Made by a program: the position numbers and the translations under genes
Notes under the pieces: generated by a model
Told to the model about the DNA's origin: nothing
The model's database searches: none
The model's input: the letters and a program-made list of their open reading frames with translations, nothing else
Assembly (NCBI RefSeq): GCF_024505085.1
Contig: NZ_JANIBC010000017.1
Span: 1 to 53,467 of the forward strand
Reading direction: 5' to 3'
Origin: Parvularcula maris
GTDB lineage: Bacteria > Pseudomonadota > Alphaproteobacteria > Caulobacterales > Parvularculaceae
Length of the DNA: 53,467 nucleotides
In this document: in pieces, positions 1 to 53,322 of the stretch
Layout: the number at the start of each line of letters is the position of its first letter
Position numbering within the stretch: position 1 is the stretch's first letter

Positions 1-36
1 GGGGGAGCTGCCGGCAGGCTGAGGGGGACGGGGCGC
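1..36. repeat. Edge-truncated copy of palindromic repeat family R5
   Basis: The first 30 bases contain the core GAGCTGCCGGCAGGCTGAGG, which recurs at 33212-33231 as one arm of a longer inverted repeat. Only this arm lies inside the window and the partner arm would be beyond the left edge. No coding potential is seen. Repeats of this general sequence are common between genes in many alphaproteobacteria; that is background knowledge, not something checked here. Confidence 0.6.
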
Positions 37-5682: not shown

Positions 5683-6921
5683 ATGCATCATTTCCAGTAC
5701 CAAAACGGCGCCCTTCACGCCGAAGAGGTTCCCCTCGCCCGCATCGCCGAAGAGGTCGGAACCCCGGTCTATGTCTACTCGGCTGCCACCCTGCGGCGGC
5801 ACGCCAGCGTCTTCCGCGAGGCCTTTCCGGCGGACACGGTGACCGCCTTCTCCGTCAAGGCGCTGTCGAACCTTCATGTGCTGAAGCTTCTCGCGAGCGA
5901 GGGCCTCGGCGCCGATGTAGTGTCGGTGGGCGAGCTGGAGCGGGCCTTGCGGGCGGGCATGAAGCCCGATCAGATCGTCTTCTCCGGCGTCGGCAAGAGG
6001 AGAGAGGAGCTGCGCGCCGCCCTTCGCGCCCGTATCCTCCAGTTCAACGTGGAGAGCGAGGCGGAGCTCCGCACCCTAAGCGAGGTGGCAGAGGAAGAGG
6101 GGATCGAGGCATCCGTCGCCCTACGGATCAATCCGGATGTGGATGCCCTCACCCTGCCGGGCATCTCCACCGGCAAGAAGGACGACAAGTTCGGCATTCC
6201 GTGGGAGCGGGCGCTGGAGACCTACACCCTCGCCCGTGACCTGCCCGGTTTGAAGCCGGATGGGCTCGATTTTCACATCGGCTCTCAGATCACCTCTCTC
6301 GGCCCCTTCGAGCGGGCGGCAGAGCGGGCGGCATCGCTGGTGCGGGAGCTGCGCGGGGCGGGCTTCGACATCCGTAGGCTCGATCTGGGCGGGGGCCTCG
6401 GCATTCCCTATGCGGATGGCGACCAGCCGCCCCTTCCCTCGGCCTATGCCGAGGCCGTGACCAAGATCACGGCAGGGCTCGATGTCCAACTCATCTTCGA
6501 GCCCGGTCGGGTCATTGCGGGCAATGCGGGGGTGCTACTGACCTCGGTGGTGCTGACCAAGCATCAGACCACGAAGAATTTCGTGGTGGTGGACGCGGCG
6601 ATGAACGACCTCATCCGCCCCGCCCTCTACGGCGCGACCCACCGCCTTCTGCCGGTAGCGCAGAAGGAGGGTGATCCCTCCGCATACGCCTTGGTAGGCC
6701 CGGTCTGCGAGAGCACGGACAAGTTCACCGACGCAGCCATGCTGGCAGACCCCCAGGCTGGGGACTTGTTGGCCTTCGGCACGGCTGGGGCCTACGGCGC
6801 GGTGCAGGCGTCGCAGTACAATACGAGGCCGCTCGTGCCCGAGGTGCTGGTGGACGGTGGTAGCTACAAGGTGATCCGCAGACGGCCTACGCTGGACGAG
6901 ATGCTGGCGTTGGAAGAGTAG
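5683..6921 (+). CDS. lysA: Diaminopimelate decarboxylase
   Basis: LysA converts meso-diaminopimelate to L-lysine, the last step of the DAP pathway, in the cytosol with PLP. The 412-residue fold-III enzyme shows the PLP lysine in FSVKALSN (Lys59), HIGSQI, the glycine loop GGGLGIPY, EPGR, the active-site cysteine motif GPVCESTD, and GAYG near the end. The length is typical. It follows lptM directly. Together with dapE in this window it covers two steps of the same pathway, though the two genes are not in one operon. Confidence 0.97.
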   Translation: MHHFQYQNGALHAEEVPLARIAEEVGTPVYVYSAATLRRHASVFREAFPADTVTAFSVKALSNLHVLKLLASEGLGADVVSVGELERALRAGMKPDQIVFSGVGKRREELRAALRARILQFNVESEAELRTLSEVAEEEGIEASVALRINPDVDALTLPGISTGKKDDKFGIPWERALETYTLARDLPGLKPDGLDFHIGSQITSLGPFERAAERAASLVRELRGAGFDIRRLDLGGGLGIPYADGDQPPLPSAYAEAVTKITAGLDVQLIFEPGRVIAGNAGVLLTSVVLTKHQTTKNFVVVDAAMNDLIRPALYGATHRLLPVAQKEGDPSAYALVGPVCESTDKFTDAAMLADPQAGDLLAFGTAGAYGAVQASQYNTRPLVPEVLVDGGSYKVIRRRPTLDEMLALEE

Positions 6922-6931
6922 TACCGAACAT

Positions 6932-7058: not shown

Positions 7059-9149
7059 CTACCGCAAACGATCCTCACGCGGAGAGCTGTACGTGCCCTC
7101 CTCGTCATCATCGCTGCGGCGGCGGTCGTCGAGGTCGAAGGAGAAGCGCTCCAGCCTCGTCTCGAAGTCGCCGGAGGCGTCGAGGTCGCGGGTTCGCTCC
7201 TCGTCGGTTTCGCGGCGGCGACGCGAGGTGACGCGGTCGTCGCTGAGGGCTGCCGGGTCTCTTCGGTAGCGGCGCTCCTGGGACTCACGGCGCTCGGTAG
7301 GCTGACGGCGGCCGCCGCGCTGCTCGGAGAGCTCGCGGGCGAGCTCCTGCTCCTCCTCGCGCAGACGGCGGAGGCGGGCTTCGAGGTCCTCGGCGCGGCT
7401 CTCCTGACGGGAGCGTTCCTCCGCTCTGTAGTCGTCTTCGTCATCCTCGAAATAGAGGTCGCGGCCCCCGCCCTCATCGAAGCGCTCATAGCTGCGGCTC
7501 TGCGGCGCGTGATCGTCCTCAGGCAGAACATTGTGCAGGAGGTTCAGCGTGCCCATGAGGGTCGAGGGCGAGGTCAGCCAGACCCGCGCCCGGTGGCTGT
7601 CGCGCACGAGGTCGGGGAAGCGGTCGTGAAGGATCGTGTACGCCGCTTCCGAAGGCAGGAACAGGATCGCGCTGTCGGCGGTCTCGCCCCTCACAATGCA
7701 GCGGTCGGCCACAGAGAAGATCGAGCGTAGGACCGTTCTGCGGAAATCATCCTCGGCCTTCTTCGCCTGGGGCATGTTCTTGCGGACCGCGTCGCGGCTC
7801 GGCAGGCGGTTGAAGCTCTCGATGGGGAAGCCGCCGTCGATCGCCACCTTGGAGCGGCCGCCCGAAAGGCCGATCACGCAGTCCGCGATCTGACCGTTGG
7901 AGAGGCGGGCGTTCAGCTCGTACTCGTCATCGTCGAGGGTCGAACGGACGACCTCGGAGAGGCGCATGGTGACCGAGCCGTCGCTCTGGGCGCGCTCGAG
8001 GAAGCTGCGCTCCAGACGGCCGAAATCCTCTTTCAGCCCGTCGAAATTATCGCGGATCTGACCGATGGCGGCGTGGCTCGCCTCAACATCGCGGCGGAAG
8101 CTAAGGACCTCGTCATGCATGGAGCGAAGGTCGGCGCGGATCGGCGCCATCTCGTCGAGCCGCGTGCCAACCACGCGGGAGAGGTCGTCGAGCCGGTCGC
8201 CCTGGACCTTCATGTGATCGGTGACGCGCTCGACCATGGTGGTCAGGCTGTCGATGCGGCGGCGGGTGGCAGCCCCATCCTCGTCGTCGGTCTTGATGCC
8301 GTGCCGGTCGAGCTTGCGGTCGATGGAGGAGAGGAAGAGGTCGAGGCGGCTCGACTGCTCGTCGCGGATGCCGGTGAGCTGGCGGCGCATGTCGTCGCGC
8401 AGATCGTCGAGCCTCGAATGCTGACGACGCTCGCTCTCTTCGATGTAGTCCTTGATGAAAGGGGCCATAAACGGAGCGTCCTGGTCTTCGTAGCGTCCGG
8501 CGGAGAGCCTGTCGTCGTAGCTCGAGCTTCTCGTCTCCTGGTAAGAGGCCTGCTGCTGCGGCCTGTCCCATTCGGTACTGCTGGCTGGGGCCTGATAGAA
8601 ATCGTCCCGGCGGCTCTCGCCGATGGCCGCCTCGCGGCGCGGCTCGACCCGCGGCAGGGGCTGGGGCTCGGGGACGGGTTCCGGCTCGGGCTCGGGTTCC
8701 GGCGTTCTCAGCGGCACCACGTTCGGCGCCGCCTCGGGGTCGCGGCTCATGGGCGGGGCGGCGAGCTCCGGCTCGTCGTAATAGGGATCGGGCTCGACCT
8801 CGGTGGTCAAGGGGCCTGGCTCTGCTCGCTCTTCGCGGGTGATGCGGATCGAGGAGAAGTCGTCGTCCCGGTCGGAGAAGCCGCTCTGGCTCGCCGTGTC
8901 GAAGCCCTGATCGAACAGGTCGCCGCTATCGTCGTAGAAGTTCTTGCGCCGGTTCAGGCGGAAATAGGTGATCGCCAGGGCGCCGAGCACGGCGAGACCC
9001 ACCACCGCGAGGATGATGTATTGCAGGGTATGTCCACCACTAGCCATTGTCTCGTTCGCCCCCGTTACCTGCTCGAGCGCATCGCCCAGAGCCTCGTCCA
9101 CGACGATCTCCACGCGCTGCATCCCGAATGGGTTCAAGTTCCATGCCAT
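7059..9149 (-). CDS. rmuC: RmuC-family protein, extended, with altered D-x-K motif
   Basis: RmuC proteins are membrane-tethered and limit DNA rearrangement; the family has been assigned to the restriction-endonuclease-like superfamily. This 696-residue version has a transmembrane helix at 42-64, an acidic/proline-rich linker (about 70-230, with a Pro-Glu repeat near 151-162), a long coiled coil (235-390), the RmuC core (about 395-545: IADCVIGL, AIDGGFPIESF, SAILFLPSEAAY, WLTSPSTLMGTL) and a 150-residue Arg/Glu-rich tail. The core motif usually written D-x-K (IDSKFP or IDAKM) reads IDGGFP, so the lysine is missing. It is divergent from def-fmt-truA, the usual alphaproteobacterial order. The start is uncertain: Met1 places 41 residues before the membrane helix, while Met35 (ATG, 9047) would give a short leader. 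Confidence 0.85.
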   Translation of the reverse strand: MAWNLNPFGMQRVEIVVDEALGDALEQVTGANETMASGGHTLQYIILAVVGLAVLGALAITYFRLNRRKNFYDDSGDLFDQGFDTASQSGFSDRDDDFSSIRITREERAEPGPLTTEVEPDPYYDEPELAAPPMSRDPEAAPNVVPLRTPEPEPEPEPVPEPQPLPRVEPRREAAIGESRRDDFYQAPASSTEWDRPQQQASYQETRSSSYDDRLSAGRYEDQDAPFMAPFIKDYIEESERRQHSRLDDLRDDMRRQLTGIRDEQSSRLDLFLSSIDRKLDRHGIKTDDEDGAATRRRIDSLTTMVERVTDHMKVQGDRLDDLSRVVGTRLDEMAPIRADLRSMHDEVLSFRRDVEASHAAIGQIRDNFDGLKEDFGRLERSFLERAQSDGSVTMRLSEVVRSTLDDDEYELNARLSNGQIADCVIGLSGGRSKVAIDGGFPIESFNRLPSRDAVRKNMPQAKKAEDDFRRTVLRSIFSVADRCIVRGETADSAILFLPSEAAYTILHDRFPDLVRDSHRARVWLTSPSTLMGTLNLLHNVLPEDDHAPQSRSYERFDEGGGRDLYFEDDEDDYRAEERSRQESRAEDLEARLRRLREEEQELARELSEQRGGRRQPTERRESQERRYRRDPAALSDDRVTSRRRRETDEERTRDLDASGDFETRLERFSFDLDDRRRSDDDEEGTYSSPREDRLR

Positions 9150-9367
9150 CCCAAATCACCGGCCACCGTTCCTGCCCCATCAACCCTTATCCGAACGCGG
9201 TCGGGACAGTGCTGAGCAGGTGTTATGTCATCAAACTTTCCCCAATGCGAGACGCGTGCCACCACGCGGCGCGCGCCAGAGTTGCAGGAAAGTCTTAGAT
9301 TGTCGTTAGACTCTGGCCCGCCTCCTCAATATTGACCCCGAAGCCCCCGAAACTTAGGTGGAGTTCT

Positions 9368-18336: not shown

Positions 18337-19311
18337 ATGAGGATCGCCTTCCAGACCGACCCCTTTGCAGGCCTGACGACCAAGGGAGACACCACCTTCG
18401 CCCTGGCCCTCGAAGCGCAGGCGCGGGGCTTCGAGCTTTGGGAGTACGAGCCGAGGGATCTGCGCCTCGAAGGCGATCGGGTCACGGCGAGGGCTGCCCG
18501 CCTTCTGAACCTCAAGGATCAGCAAGGCGGCCATGCGGAGCGCAGCGAGGCTGCCGATCTCGACCTCGCCGAGATGGACGTGATCCTCATCCGCCAGGAC
18601 CCGCCCTTCGACATGGTCTACATGACCGCCTGCTACATGCTGGAGAAGCTGCCCGAGAGCGTGCTAGTCCTCAACGATCCGGCGGAGATCAGGGGCGCGC
18701 CCGAAAAGCTCTTCGTCATGGACTACCCGGAGCTGATGCCCCCCACCCTCGTCACCGCCGACGAGGAGGCGCTGAGGGCCTTCCGCGACCGGCACGAGGA
18801 CATGATCCTCAAGCCGCTCTACGGAAACGGCGGTGCGGGGGTGTTCCGCGTCAGGCCCGGCGACGAGAACTTCTCCTCCCTGCTGGAGATGTTCCTCGCA
18901 GGCCCCCGCCCCCTCCCCGTCATCGCGCAAGCCTACCTCAAGGAGGTGCGCGGCGGGGACAAGCGCGTCCTGCTCCTCGACGGCGAGCCCGTCGGCGCCA
19001 TCAACCGGGTACCTGCGGAGGGCGAGGCACGCTCCAACATGCATGTGGGCGGCAGAGCCGAGCCCTGCGAGCTCTCCGAACGGGACCTCGAGATCTGCGC
19101 CGCCATCGCACCGGAGCTGAAGGAGCGCCGCCTGGTCCTCACCGGCATCGACGTCATCGGCGGCTACATGACCGAGATCAACGTCACCAGCCCCACCGGC
19201 ATCCGCGAGCTCAAACGCTTCGGCGGGCCGGACATGGCGGCGATGTTCTGGGACTGGTGCGCTCGGGAAAAGCTTCCTCTTGAGACTACGCGAGCCGAGT
19301 CTAGTCTGTAG
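18337..19311 (+). CDS. gshB: Glutathione synthetase with replaced C-terminus
   Basis: GshB joins gamma-glutamylcysteine and glycine with ATP (ATP-grasp fold). The 324-residue protein shows AFQTDPF, RQDPPFDMVY, LNDPAEIRGAPEK, ILKPLYGNGGAGVF (ATP-grasp loop) and INVTSPTGIREL. The body is normal up to WDWCARE. After 19268 the reading frame continues into low-G+C DNA and ends 13 residues later as KLPLETTRAESSL. The older terminus (WDWCARERAAEAR-stop) survives as a fragment at 21049-21129, beyond a peptidase gene. The active site lies well upstream, so activity is probably kept. It is the last gene of rsmI-yraN-BON-gshB. Confidence 0.95.
   Translation: MRIAFQTDPFAGLTTKGDTTFALALEAQARGFELWEYEPRDLRLEGDRVTARAARLLNLKDQQGGHAERSEAADLDLAEMDVILIRQDPPFDMVYMTACYMLEKLPESVLVLNDPAEIRGAPEKLFVMDYPELMPPTLVTADEEALRAFRDRHEDMILKPLYGNGGAGVFRVRPGDENFSSLLEMFLAGPRPLPVIAQAYLKEVRGGDKRVLLLDGEPVGAINRVPAEGEARSNMHVGGRAEPCELSERDLEICAAIAPELKERRLVLTGIDVIGGYMTEINVTSPTGIRELKRFGGPDMAAMFWDWCAREKLPLETTRAESSL
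19209..19268 (+). repeat. Direct repeat, left copy (3' coding end of gshB)
   Basis: These 60 bp of gshB match 21048-21107 at 58 positions. The two differences (19215 a/g and 19260 c/t) fall in third codon positions and leave Lys and Cys unchanged. The match stops sharply on both sides. It forms the left boundary of the insert. Confidence 0.9.
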
Positions 19312-19361
19312 CCTATTAATACCTACGATTTGCAGAGATTGTTCGAACGCACTCTCTCAAC

Positions 19362-20909
19362 TTAACCTACCGAACAAGAAGAACGTAGCGATACTGCTTC
19401 TACTCGCTGCGCGGTCTTCTTGAATGCAGAAAGCTGCTCCTCATTCATGTCCGGTTCTTCTCGAGGCAGCCAGGGCGCAACGAATGCCAGACTATCGCAG
19501 GCGCTTTCATGGTCGCCGTACAAGGAGAGGGCTTCGGCAATGACGAGCTGTTGAGAGGACAGGCCAGCATTGCGCCGGTAGTGCACAAGAAAGCGTACGG
19601 CCTTGATAGCTACCTCGTCAGGCTTCTCGTTCAGCTTCGTATAGGTCTCAATATAGTGTAGGTTTGCCGTTGGGTTGGTTGGGTCCAACCGAAGTTGCTG
19701 TCCGAAATACTGTCTGGACTGACGGAGATCGCTGGGATCGGCAGTCTTATCCAATTGCTCTTCAAAGCCTGTAAACCGATGGAAATGGGCGTCTCCGGCG
19801 ATCTTTAAGGCTTCCGGGTCGGACGGAAAGAGAGCCAGCGCTCGCTCACCAACCTCGATACTGCGATCGAAATCCTTCTCGGCAAAAGAAAGGGCCAGTC
19901 TCACCGCCAGTGTGGTCAGGGTCTCGCCGAACTTCCTCTCGTAGCTGCCGACCTGCTTCGTCGCCCAGTTCTTATGCCGGCTATTATCCCTCACAAAAGC
20001 CGTCATCGCACGTAGCTGAGCTGCTTGTGTTTCTTCCCCCGACAGTCGGCGGACACTGATGGATTGGCTGGAGACAGCATCGGTGAACTGAAGCTTGGCG
20101 ACTGGGTAGCTTCGGCTTGCAAAGTAGCGCTCAGCTTGCTCACCGAACTCTTCTACGCTCATCTTGAAGGCTTGCTCGAAAGCCGTAAGCGGTTCGGTAC
20201 CGCTGTTAATAAGCTCCAAGTACCTAGGAACTTCGACATTAAGCTTGTCATTGAACTGAATATAGTGAACGCCTAGCCAGCTCTGGCCATAGAAATAAGA
20301 GAGATAGTTCGGCGACTTGTTCTTGCTGCTCGGATAGGACCGCACTGCGCCGAGCACGACCTTCCAGTCGATCCAATCCTCACGGCCGCCCAGTACATAG
20401 CCGAACTTGCTACCTGGGATGCCGATCGTCACCTCGTCGCCATCGGCCTCGAAAGAACTCAGAAACTCCGCAAACCCCTCATTGTACCAACGCGGCACGT
20501 AACGCGTGGAGTACGAGTTCATGATGTGATGGGCGAACTCGTGCAGGGCAGTAGCCCGGCTTCCGCCGCGGGAGCCGAGACCATCCATCGTATCCATGAT
20601 GAAGACCGGTCCATCGCTGCCGAGCGTGTAGACACCTGAAATCCCACCCGAGCCGGTCAGCTTGGACATGCCTCGGGCGCCTTTGATCCCGAAGACCTCG
20701 ACCGGACGAGCTTCGGGCTGAGCATCCGCTCCCAAGACATTGAGAACGGTGTACCGGTAGAGCTCCAGCTCACGAACCAATCGCACGGCATCGGCTTCTT
20801 TGGCCTGCCCCGCGAAATGAAAGTTGGGGGATCGGACTTCCACCCACGATGCGGCAGCCTGCCCGGCGCACGACAGAACAACCAGTATCGGCAAGATACA
20901 GCGGTACAT
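19362..20909 (-). CDS. Secreted HExxH metallopeptidase (peptidase MA-like, gluzincin) with TPR-like region
   Basis: The 515-residue protein has a signal peptide (cleavage near AAA-SW, residue 20). A zinc-protease module follows: HEFAHH with His123, Glu124 and His127, and WYNEGFAEF with Glu144 as the likely third ligand 17 residues on. This is the gluzincin/peptidase MA pattern. Residues about 330-510 read as helical TPR-like repeats (ALALFPSDPEALKIAGDAHF, then RLDPTNPTANLHYIETY). It is exported to the periplasm or beyond; the substrate is unknown. ATG 20909 is preferred because it starts a clean signal peptide; a start at 20969 adds 20 unlikely residues. Base composition and codon use differ from all neighbours, consistent with transfer. 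Confidence 0.85.
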   Translation of the reverse strand: MYRCILPILVVLSCAGQAAASWVEVRSPNFHFAGQAKEADAVRLVRELELYRYTVLNVLGADAQPEARPVEVFGIKGARGMSKLTGSGGISGVYTLGSDGPVFIMDTMDGLGSRGGSRATALHEFAHHIMNSYSTRYVPRWYNEGFAEFLSSFEADGDEVTIGIPGSKFGYVLGGREDWIDWKVVLGAVRSYPSSKNKSPNYLSYFYGQSWLGVHYIQFNDKLNVEVPRYLELINSGTEPLTAFEQAFKMSVEEFGEQAERYFASRSYPVAKLQFTDAVSSQSISVRRLSGEETQAAQLRAMTAFVRDNSRHKNWATKQVGSYERKFGETLTTLAVRLALSFAEKDFDRSIEVGERALALFPSDPEALKIAGDAHFHRFTGFEEQLDKTADPSDLRQSRQYFGQQLRLDPTNPTANLHYIETYTKLNEKPDEVAIKAVRFLVHYRRNAGLSSQQLVIAEALSLYGDHESACDSLAFVAPWLPREEPDMNEEQLSAFKKTAQRVEAVSLRSSCSVG

Positions 20910-21047
20910 GAACACACCTACCCTTATACTCGAAGCTTCAACTACTTCTCGCTGAAATGCTAGGGCCACGCGCTATGCGATAAGCGAAAAAATCCGGAAA
21001 CCTCCCTGCACTAGGGCGTCGTTCCAACTCTCCATAGGCAACTACGG

Positions 21048-21107
21048 GCTCAAGCGCTTCGGCGGGCCGGACATGGCGGCGATGTTCTGGGACTGGTGTG
21101 CTCGGGA
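21048..21107 (+). repeat. Direct repeat, right copy
   Basis: This is the second 60-bp copy of the gshB 3' coding end (see 19209-19268), differing by two silent changes. It marks the right boundary of the low-G+C insert. The sequence just left of it (CCATAGGCAACTACGG) does not resemble gshB, so the duplication starts abruptly here. Confidence 0.9.
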
Positions 21108-21129
21108 GCGAGCTGCGGAGGCTCGGTAA
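21049..21129 (+). pseudogene. Displaced 3' end of gshB
   Basis: In the gshB frame this encodes LKRFGGPDMAAMFWDWCARE, then RAAEAR and a TAA stop: 26 residues that would be a normal gshB C-terminus. It has no start codon of its own and is cut off from the gshB body by the insert. The intact frame, stop codon and only silent differences suggest the event is recent, or that this was the native terminus. Confidence 0.85.
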
Positions 21130-21180: not shown

Positions 21181-21615
21181 ATGCTGCTTGCCACCGCCGC
21201 TGCCGTCGCAGCCCTCACCCTTTCCGCGCCGCAGCCGACCACGCTGATCACCGCCTACGCCGCATCGCTGCAGGAGAGCGAGGTTCTTCTCTCCGGCACC
21301 TTCGAGGGCCGCGAGGGCAAACGCGGCCAGGGTACGGCGCGGATCGTCCGCGAAGGCGAGCGGATGTTCCTTGAGTTCGAAGGCTTCCGCACCAGCCGCG
21401 GCCCGCAGCTCGAAGTCTGGATCACCGACCGCACCGTGCGCCGGAACGAGGACGTCAAAGGCTCTGGGTACGTAGATCTCGGTGATCTCGAAAGCCACCG
21501 CCGCGGTACCCAGCGCTACGAACTGCCCGAAGGCTTCGACCTCTCCAGTGCCGCTAGCGTGACGATCTGGTGCGAGCCCTTCGAGATCCTGTTCGCCTCG
21601 GCCGATCTTTCCTAG
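21181..21615 (+). CDS. Exported DM13-domain protein
   Basis: The 144-residue protein has an N-terminal signal-like hydrophobic stretch and then a DM13 domain: LSGTFEGREG, RGPQLEVWIT, YVDLGDLES and the near-terminal VTIWCEPFEILFASADL with the conserved Cys. DM13 domains have been proposed to act in redox or hydroxylation reactions through this cysteine; the partner is unknown. ATG 21181 has GGAG 6 nt upstream and is preferred over a TTG at 21169. It lies between the displaced gshB end and comM, and would have followed gshB directly before the insertion. Confidence 0.88.
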   Translation: MLLATAAAVAALTLSAPQPTTLITAYAASLQESEVLLSGTFEGREGKRGQGTARIVREGERMFLEFEGFRTSRGPQLEVWITDRTVRRNEDVKGSGYVDLGDLESHRRGTQRYELPEGFDLSSAASVTIWCEPFEILFASADLS

Positions 21616-21687: not shown

Positions 21688-23181
21688 ATGGTTGCCGAGG
21701 TGACGAGCTTTGCCTTCGAGGGCGTGGAAGCCCGCGAAGTGACCGTGCAGGCGCATCTGACCGGTGGTCAGCCCGGCTTCGTCATCGTCGGGCTGCCGGA
21801 CAAGTCCGTGAGCGAGGCGAAGGACCGGATCAGCGCCGCGTTCTCGGCCATCGGGCTGGGGCTGCCGCCCAAGAAGATCACCGTGAACCTCGCGCCGGCC
21901 GACCTGCGCAAGGAGGGAAGCCATTTCGACCTGCCCATCGCCCTCGCGCTGATGGCCGAGATGGGGGCTATCCCCCGCGATGCGGTCGGCGGGATGGCGG
22001 TGATCGGCGAGCTAGGTCTTGACGGCTCGATCGCCAAGACCGTGGGCGCCCTGCCTGCCGCCATGGCCGCGAACGCCCTCGATCTGGGCCTCATCTGCTC
22101 GGACAAATCCGGCGCCGAGGCCGCCTGGGCCGGAGAGAGCGTGCCGCTGATCGCGGCGCCAAGCATCATCTCCCTCGCCAACCACTTCAAGGGGACGCAG
22201 ACCCTGCCTGCGCCGAAACCGGGCGCGGTGCTGACCGAGACCGGTGTTCCCGACCTCTCCGAAGTCAAAGGTCAGGAAACAGCCCGGCGAGCCCTGGAGG
22301 TCGCCGCTGCGGGTGGACACAACCTCTTGATGACCGGGCCTCCGGGCTCGGGCAAGAGCATGATGGCCGAGCGTCTGCCGGGCCTCCTGCCGCCGCTCTC
22401 CCTGACGGAGATGCTCGAGGTCTCAATGGTGCAGTCCGTGGCCGGGCTGATCGAGAACGGCGCGTTGCGCCGCACCCGGCCCTACCGCGCTCCGCACCAT
22501 TCAGCCTCCATGGCGGCCATGGTAGGGGGCGGCATCCGGGCCAAGCCTGGCGAGGCGTCCCTCGCCCACCGGGGCGTTCTCTTTCTGGACGAGCTGCCCG
22601 AGTTCAGCCCCGCCGTGCTCGACAGTCTGCGCCAGCCGCTCGAGACCGGCGACATCCTCATCGCCCGTGCCAACGCCCATGTGCGCTACCCGGCACGCTT
22701 TCAGCTCGTCGCCGCGATGAACCCCTGCCGCTGCGGCTCGGTCTGTATCCGCGGCAAGGGCTGCGGCGCGAAGTACCGGGCGCGGGTCTCCGGGCCGTTC
22801 CTGGACCGGATGGACATCTCGGTGGATACCCCGCCTGTCTCGGCCCTCGACCTGACCAGCGCCGCGGAAGGCGAGAGCACGGCGGCGGTGGCGGCGCGGG
22901 TCGCCGCGGCCAGGGCGGCTCAAGAGGAGCGGGGGGCGATCAACGCCGCCCTCGGCCAGCAGCAGCTCGGCGAGGTGGCCAGCCTCGACGAAGCCGGGCT
23001 CGGGCTTCTGCGACGGGCCTGCGAGCAGCTCAAGCTCTCCGCCCGCGGCTACACCCGCATCCTGCGGGTCGCCCGGACCCTTGCCGATCTCGAGGGTAGG
23101 GACAGCGTCGGGCGCGTCCATATCGCCGAGGCCATCAGCTTCAGAAGCGCTGAACCGGCTGCCGAAAAGGCCATGGGCTAG
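21688..23181 (+). CDS. comM: ComM/YifB-family AAA+ ATPase
   Basis: ComM is a hexameric helicase that drives branch migration when incoming DNA is integrated during natural transformation. The 497-residue protein has the N-terminal LonC-like region (VGLPDKSVSEAKDRI, then NLAPADLRKEGSHFDLPIA), Walker A GPPGSGKS (217-224), Walker B VLFLDELPEF (Asp301, Glu302) and a cysteine cluster NPCRCGSVC before SGPFLDRMDI. Length is close to the family norm (about 500). GGGAGG precedes ATG 21688. comM near gshB is a common alphaproteobacterial arrangement. Other competence genes are not in the window. Confidence 0.95.
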   Translation: MVAEVTSFAFEGVEAREVTVQAHLTGGQPGFVIVGLPDKSVSEAKDRISAAFSAIGLGLPPKKITVNLAPADLRKEGSHFDLPIALALMAEMGAIPRDAVGGMAVIGELGLDGSIAKTVGALPAAMAANALDLGLICSDKSGAEAAWAGESVPLIAAPSIISLANHFKGTQTLPAPKPGAVLTETGVPDLSEVKGQETARRALEVAAAGGHNLLMTGPPGSGKSMMAERLPGLLPPLSLTEMLEVSMVQSVAGLIENGALRRTRPYRAPHHSASMAAMVGGGIRAKPGEASLAHRGVLFLDELPEFSPAVLDSLRQPLETGDILIARANAHVRYPARFQLVAAMNPCRCGSVCIRGKGCGAKYRARVSGPFLDRMDISVDTPPVSALDLTSAAEGESTAAVAARVAAARAAQEERGAINAALGQQQLGEVASLDEAGLGLLRRACEQLKLSARGYTRILRVARTLADLEGRDSVGRVHIAEAISFRSAEPAAEKAMG

Positions 23182-29886: not shown

Positions 29887-30006
29887 TGCGCTTTCCCACG
29901 GTCGCGAAAGCGATCCGTGGGACCCATCTCCTAACGCCGCCCTTCTGCGACTGACTCAGGAGTTGGGTCCCCCGTTCTCCGGCTGCGCCTACGCCGTGGG
30001 AAGGCG
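29887..30006. repeat. Intergenic palindromic repeat family R1, copy 2
   Basis: The outer arms GCGCTTTCCCACGG (29888-29901) and CCGTGGGAAGGCG (29994-30006) enclose inner arms CGTGGGACCCATCTCC and GGAGTTGGGTCCC. The arrangement is the same as copy 1 at 80-194, while the 30-nt centre differs. Confidence 0.75.
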
Positions 30007-33115: not shown

Positions 33116-33241
33116 AGGTGCCCCCCTCCGCCCTCCGGGCACCTCCCCCACTCGCGTAGGGGAGGGAAGAAGTGACCGGCGCTGACTCTCATGTTGGCTC
33201 CCACTCTAGAGGGGAGCTGCCGGCAGGCTGAGGGGGAGTGG
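33116..33241. repeat. Intergenic palindromic repeat family R5
   Basis: The left part is CAGGTGCCCCCCTCCGCCC ... CCTCCCCCACTC; the right part is GAGGGGAGCTGCCGGCAGGC and TGAGGGGGAGTGG. Together they form an imperfect inverted repeat. The right arm is nearly identical to the window start (1-30). It lies between the convergent ggt and valS genes and could fold as a two-way transcript end. No gene is seen in the 218-nt gap. Confidence 0.65.
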
Positions 33242-48262: not shown

Positions 48263-48319
48263 CGTTCCGCCGCCGAGCTTCGAAGGGTTTGCATTAGATG
48301 CGCTTCCGCTCTCCTTCTA

Positions 48320-48426
48320 ACGCCTCCCACGGCCTCGACCGTGGGACCCATCTCCCACCGGCGAACATTTGACAGGCTTCAGAAGATGGGTCCCACGGTC
48401 TGCGCTTCGCTTCGCCGTGGGAAGCG
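48320..48426. repeat. Intergenic palindromic repeat family R1, copy 3
   Basis: The outer arms ACGCCTCCCACGG (48320-48332) and CCGTGGGAAGCG (48415-48426) enclose inner arms CCGTGGGACCCATCTCC and GAAGATGGGTCCCACGG. It lies between tRNA-Ala and the L,D-transpeptidase gene. Apart from repeats R6 and R1 and a 19-codon ORF, the gap 48187-48593 shows no gene. Confidence 0.78.
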
Positions 48427-53164: not shown

Positions 53165-53211
53165 GTTGGGTCCTTGTTGCAGCGCCCGTTCCTTAGCACT
53201 CACTTTCCCTA

Positions 53212-53322
53212 TAGCGCTCACCACGGCGAAGACCATGGTGCCCAGCTCCTATGGGTGCGATCATGTTCAGCCTTCAGGTGATGGGTCCCACGGTCTTCGC
53301 TGCGCTGCGCCGTGGGAAGCGG
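53212..53322. repeat. Intergenic palindromic repeat family R1, copy 4
   Basis: The right arm is well kept (GATGGGTCCCACGGTC and CCGTGGGAAGCGG, to 53322), whereas the left arm is decayed (CTCACCACGGCGAAGACCAT and GTGCCCAGCTCC). It is the most diverged of the four R1 copies. Confidence 0.6.

Follow-up and report, generated by a model that had tools for sequence, protein, structure and literature searches.

Duplication of the gshB 3' end around a 1.8-kb low-G+C segment in Parvularcula maris, a possible remnant of gene-end integration

Organization of the gshB locus

The window analysed here is the whole 53,467-nucleotide stretch of contig NZ_JANIBC010000017.1 from Parvularcula maris, whose assembly (GCF_024505085.1) measures 3.19 Mb and is 99.45% complete. 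In this window the last coding part of gshB, the glutathione synthetase gene, is present twice in direct orientation, and the two copies are separated by a 1.8-kb segment containing one plausible gene, which codes for a peptidase-like protein. The features of the locus, in window coordinates, are as follows.

18337-19311, plus strand: gshB (Pfam GSH-S_N and GSH-S_ATP), open reading frame (ORF) intact, with an altered 13-residue C-terminus
19209-19268, plus strand: left 60-bp repeat copy, resembling a left attachment (att) site (attL-like), in the gshB frame
19269-21047, no strand: inserted segment, 1,779 bp, 55.1% G+C; its end stretches are single-copy, matching nothing else in 10 genomes of the genus, the window's own included
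19362-20912, minus strand: HExxH peptidase-like protein of 516 amino acids, probably secreted (signal peptide by eye), weak TPR matches; named from its motif
21048-21107, plus strand: right 60-bp repeat copy (attR-like)
21048-21129, plus strand: old 3' end of gshB, displaced together with its stop codon (TAA, 21127-21129) and severed from the gshB body
21181-21615, plus strand: DM13-domain gene, a native neighbour, which also lies between gshB and comM in the related genome G005
21688-23181, plus strand: comM, a native neighbour

Recomputation from the sequence confirmed the 60-bp duplication reported in a preliminary description of this DNA. Positions 19209-19268 recur at 21048-21107 with 58 of 60 bases identical, and neither mismatch changes an amino acid: A/G at 19215 gives AAA/AAG (Lys), and C/T at 19260 gives TGC/TGT (Cys). 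This pair was the top direct repeat when the window was compared with itself by BLAST (E 4.7e-22), and nothing in the assembly other than the two copies matched the gshB tail (E 1.3e-22 for the second copy). At position 19260 the left copy carries TGC, like the gshB genes of the related genomes G003 and G007, while the right copy carries TGT, as would be expected if the displaced copy were free to drift.

The gshB body now runs into a terminus reading ...WDWCARE-KLPLETTRAESSL*, in which the 13 last residues are new, whereas the downstream copy reads ...WDWCARE-RAAEAR* and retains the old stop codon, both as first described. The gshB products of G003, G005, and G007 are 82-84% identical to that of the window and end 6-7 residues past WDW. 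The protein with the altered tail is probably still active.

The inserted segment and its peptidase-like gene

The G+C content of the inserted segment (55.1%) is below that of the remaining window (66.1%), and the lowest value among 241 other windows of 1,779 bp, taken at 200-bp steps, was 60.3%. The single gene previously noted between the copies was confirmed, since all other ORFs of at least 60 codons either overlap it or run antisense through the DM13 gene. When G+C content at third codon positions was recomputed in frame for eight genes of the window, this gene had the lowest value (0.647), the others ranging from 0.765 to 0.880. The predicted protein carries the motif ALHEFAHHIMN...NEGFAEFL, and its HExxH signature was conserved in all 18 aligned homologues (5 from the family and 13 drawn from 25 further loci); no family model matched the protein over its cut-off, and the motif suggests that it is a peptidase.

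Homologues of this gene were sporadic. They were found in 5 of 62 genomes of the family (E<=1e-10, window genome included), in 46 of 398 genomes of an order-wide draw (E<=1e-20), and in 2 of 10 genomes of the genus, window genome included, where they lie at different places. Plasmids and phages gave no match, nor did the first scan of genome contigs, which was insensitive since homologues exist in the other collection. The closest relative found was that of G003, in the same genus (47-49% identity, tree support 1.0). The insert had been called foreign-looking; the presence of that relative within the genus softens the claim. The histidine kinase and hemW of the window are also just 52-58% identical to those of G003, so that rapid evolution of a peptidase gene long resident in the genus is possible.

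The insert does not resemble a transposon: it contained no transposase or other further plausible ORF, and of 32 inverted-repeat pairs the 25 longest included none that linked its two ends. A repeat of 60 bp also exceeds the usual target-site duplications of transposons.

The gshB region in related genomes

A tree of gshB sequences puts the window together with G003, G005, and G007, its position beside G005 having modest support (0.75). Each of these three genomes has a single match to the gshB tail, genome-wide. In all three, gshB is followed by an enoyl-CoA-hydratase-like gene and no peptidase gene is found there; the hydratase-like gene is followed by the DM13 gene and comM in G005 and by comM in G003, while the contig of G007 stops 468 bp past gshB. 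The window assembly has no orthologue of the hydratase-like gene (best match 33%); this gene had probably gone by the time of the insertion or went with it. In the window the right repeat copy is followed by the native DM13 gene and comM. Judged against these relatives, the duplicated gshB end is a derived, lineage-specific state. Recent integration had been proposed, and among the relatives there was neither a peptidase gene at this place without a second gshB terminus nor a duplication older than the genus.

The two repeat copies show 2 mismatches in 60 bases, whereas the gshB end of G007 differs at 9% over 94 bases. These few bases hint at an insertion younger than the split from G007, for which the single tail of G007 is a stronger sign.

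Two other genomes of the genus, G008 and G009, carry a gshB (loci L034 and L035, respectively) that is just 37-40% identical to that of the window, compared with at least 64% in the remaining seven. This may reflect replacement of the gene or a loose membership of the genus.

tRNA ends, integrases, and other repeats

The peptidase homologue of G003 follows the 3' end of a tRNA-Leu(CAG) gene at a distance of 206 bp. When the same neighbourhood was inspected in six other genomes of the genus, the tRNA gene was in the fetched flank in 4 and the peptidase gene in none, with about 1.3 kb visible. The site behind this tRNA gene is variable, containing a serine recombinase in G005 and the peptidase in G003, while the window genome and G007 have different genes there.

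L209 2640-3920 (G005), L071 4928-6777 (G003), L210, and L211: variable tRNA-Leu(CAG) site

This variability is suggestive of a hotspot. Counting against one, no repeats flank the G003 gene and no tRNA gene was found at 29 other peptidase homologue loci (25 and 4), and we rejected the idea that the peptidase is a regular cargo of tRNA ends.

The window genome also contains a tyrosine-integrase gene that adjoins tRNA-Phe and is broken by a stop codon (L222 15962-17386, contig C10), which makes it probable that this lineage has undergone integration at gene ends.

A 44-bp repeat near an integrase on contig C14 was considered as an att site and rejected, because it belongs to an intergenic palindromic repeat (CCGGGATGAC...). 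A family of imperfect palindromic repeats of about 90-120 bp has members in the window at 29915-30003, 48309-48426, and 53203-53321, and in L215 at 9130-9222. The 48309 copy is arranged around CCGTGGGACCCATC...GATGGGTCCCACGG, aligned pairs are 76-79% alike, and two members have a tRNA gene no more than about 150 bp away. An exact 27-bp repeat occurs at window positions 2-28 and 33211-33237; one copy occupies the first bases of the contig, and this repeat is perhaps the reason for the assembly break there.

Origin of the duplicated gshB end

We tentatively favour, at a probability of roughly 40%, a lineage-specific gene-end integration at the 3' end of gshB, of which a remnant without recombinase, bounded by attL- and attR-like copies, would persist. 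A DNA circle bearing a near-identical 60-bp gshB-tail sequence would have met the chromosomal gshB tail and recombined with it at a gene-end attachment site, most likely in a site-specific manner. The product would be cargo flanked by attL-like and attR-like copies; the recombinase of the element would never have been on this segment or would since have been lost, leaving 1.8 kb with one peptidase-like gene, and the gshB frame would have stayed open through the substitute 13-residue tail. Both repeat copies are regarded as putative att sites. The order of gshB body, core, cargo, core, and old end is that expected when a circle recombines at the gshB tail, and in topology it fits integration into a gene end, as first suggested.

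This reading is favoured by a 58/60 direct repeat placed in the last coding part of a gene whose frame stays open. It is further favoured by the probable earlier gene-end integration at tRNA-Phe, by the TGC/TGT difference between the copies, by the single gshB tails of G003, G005, and G007 without a peptidase gene behind them, by the native DM13 gene and comM after the right copy, by the low G+C content of the insert and the lowest third-position value of its gene, and by the occurrence of the homologue at different sites in the genus, including the variable tRNA-Leu site.

Several results weigh against this reading. The first ones concern the repeat and the insert themselves. In an inverted-repeat test over 12 bp the repeat scored 6/12, a value equalled or bettered by 99.4% of 500 control 60-mers, so nothing in it resembles paired recombinase arms. 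The 60-bp core ends before the stop codon and the native gshB terminus is consequently not restored. No recombinase was present among the ORFs of the insert, as had been remarked from the start. An empty site with gshB directly before the DM13 gene had been predicted for close relatives and was not seen in G003, G005, or G007, where the hydratase-like gene intervenes; simple integration gives no account of the absence of that gene from the window genome.

The remaining ones concern recurrence. The search for a second gshB end covered 116 sources (the window slice and 115 loci), of which 115, window included, matched gshB and one (L068) did not. The downstream DNA of the 114 other gshB loci ranged from 2 to 9,482 bp, reaching at least 1 kb in 107, at least 1.8 kb in 80, and at least 5 kb in 72; 99 loci were distinct by their last 40 residues, and some were the same genome fetched twice. 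This search, which had been suggested as a check on the integration idea, returned a second gshB end at 0 of the 114 loci within the fetched downstream DNA, islands bigger than the flank being missed. The gshB-tail att sequence was absent from viral contigs (searched with one degenerate pattern), phages, and plasmids. Relatives of three recombinases from these genomes were absent at E<=0.01 from 115 gshB-locus sources, with the queries recovered as controls. The window genome has eight Phage_integrase matches, the surroundings of five of which were viewed, including the one beside tRNA-Phe; none of these genes was tied to gshB, and the 60-bp core had no other copy in the assembly. No direct repeat of at least 30 bp was detected around the G003 peptidase gene and at nine more loci (first 4 kb searched), except for one 73% pair in L100, and a 24-bp minimum gave none at five peptidase loci.

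A query of the 39 last gshB residues against 396 genomes of the order matched twice (E<=0.1) in 13 of them, window genome included, a result that is neither for nor against integration. The literature searched gave no report of integration at gshB, which is not proof of absence.

The other matches of the second-end search were discarded as the query's own overlap, as 18-25-bp matches taken as chance, or as a local tandem repeat in L186. Additional DNA matches to the gshB tail were set aside as coding coincidences: that of G019 (41 bp) lies inside a glutamyl-tRNA-synthetase-like ORF, named by eye, and that of G010 (24 bp) in an unrelated frame (...YFGGPDMAPRR...). The repeat of L186 (Azospirillum endophyticum), a short tandem one of about 26 bp, is situated just past the gshB match (6001-6924).

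Rather unlikely, as we see it, is a RecA-type origin, in which circularised or partly degraded DNA with a short gshB tail and the peptidase gene would have entered by a single crossover within some 60 bp. Alternatively, homology-facilitated illegitimate recombination (HFIR) would have brought it in, one end being joined illegitimately just upstream of the tail. It gives the same topology and needs neither a recombinase nor recurrence, and a weak extension of similarity upstream of the repeat (10/16 bases, marginal in that 0.4% of random pairs equal it) could be junction homeology before the right copy. Integrants with flanking duplications are reported from Escherichia coli, where they were attributed to molecules that had been partly degraded, had recircularised and had entered by a single crossover (PMC3240628). 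However, 60 bp is short, the usual outcome of HFIR is a deletion and not a duplication (PMC3240628), and the donor would require a near-identical gshB already linked to the peptidase gene; among the nine other genomes of the genus the best gshB was 84% identical and none had an adjoining peptidase gene.

We give still less credence to the idea that a DNA fragment was captured while a staggered break was being mended, in which case fill-in and end joining would duplicate the overhang in the manner of a long target-site duplication. Such repair accounts for a one-off event, an arbitrary repeat length, and the lack of both a recombinase and an att site elsewhere. A 60-nucleotide stagger is long in our judgement, however, and placement at a tolerant gene end would be coincidence plus selection.

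Very improbable is a family of mobile mini-cassettes that target gene ends and depend for their movement on a recombinase acting in trans from another locus. Placement at the gshB end and the G003 relative beside the tRNA-Leu 3' end speak for it, whereas the element is single-copy with unmatched ends, the G003 gene and the nine other loci have no repeats beyond the 73% pair, and the 29 other homologue loci lack tRNA genes. The gene-end cassette mobilised in trans that the preliminary description put forward fared no better, there being no other such gshB locus, no second copy of the ends, and no linked recombinase in what was searched; these comparisons offer no evidence for a recurring family and argue against one. 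Least probable of all is a minimal cassette of one cargo gene and a 60-bp gshB-tail att, mobilised in trans by a recombinase from outside it, with cargo relatives also at tRNA 3' ends.

The locus is thus best read as a single event of a known kind. Its sequence is compatible with several recombination routes, since site-specific integration, single crossover by RecA, and the mending of a staggered break by fill-in all give the same product.

Comparison with known systems

Islands inserted by tyrosine integrases at gene 3' ends leave the target gene in frame and the displaced original end downstream. The window locus shares the in-frame gshB and the displaced old end, but differs in having no integrase in the insert, a native C-terminus that is not restored, and a core that ends before the stop codon. 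In the E. coli work, the incoming DNA of single-crossover integrants is likewise flanked by a direct duplication of the homologous tail; there, the duplications measure 109-950 bp and the donor plasmid is known (PMC3240628).

A cis-mobilizable element (CIME) is described as a decayed integrative and conjugative or integrative and mobilizable element (ICE or IME) that has kept attL and attR and lost its integration and transfer genes (PMC5704250). The segment between the gshB repeats is similar in carrying neither recombinase nor transfer genes. It differs in being just 1.8 kb long with one gene, in its gshB target, and in that no related ICE or IME sharing its att was found in the assembly, viral contigs, phages, or plasmids, for which reason we file it as CIME-like and not as a CIME. 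Set beside these systems, it is a small, clean case of an accessory gene housed at a core gene's end, with the frame unbroken and the scar still readable. A recombinase for the gshB end, if found, would make gshB a further integration site; for now, the locus is the record of one lineage-specific event.
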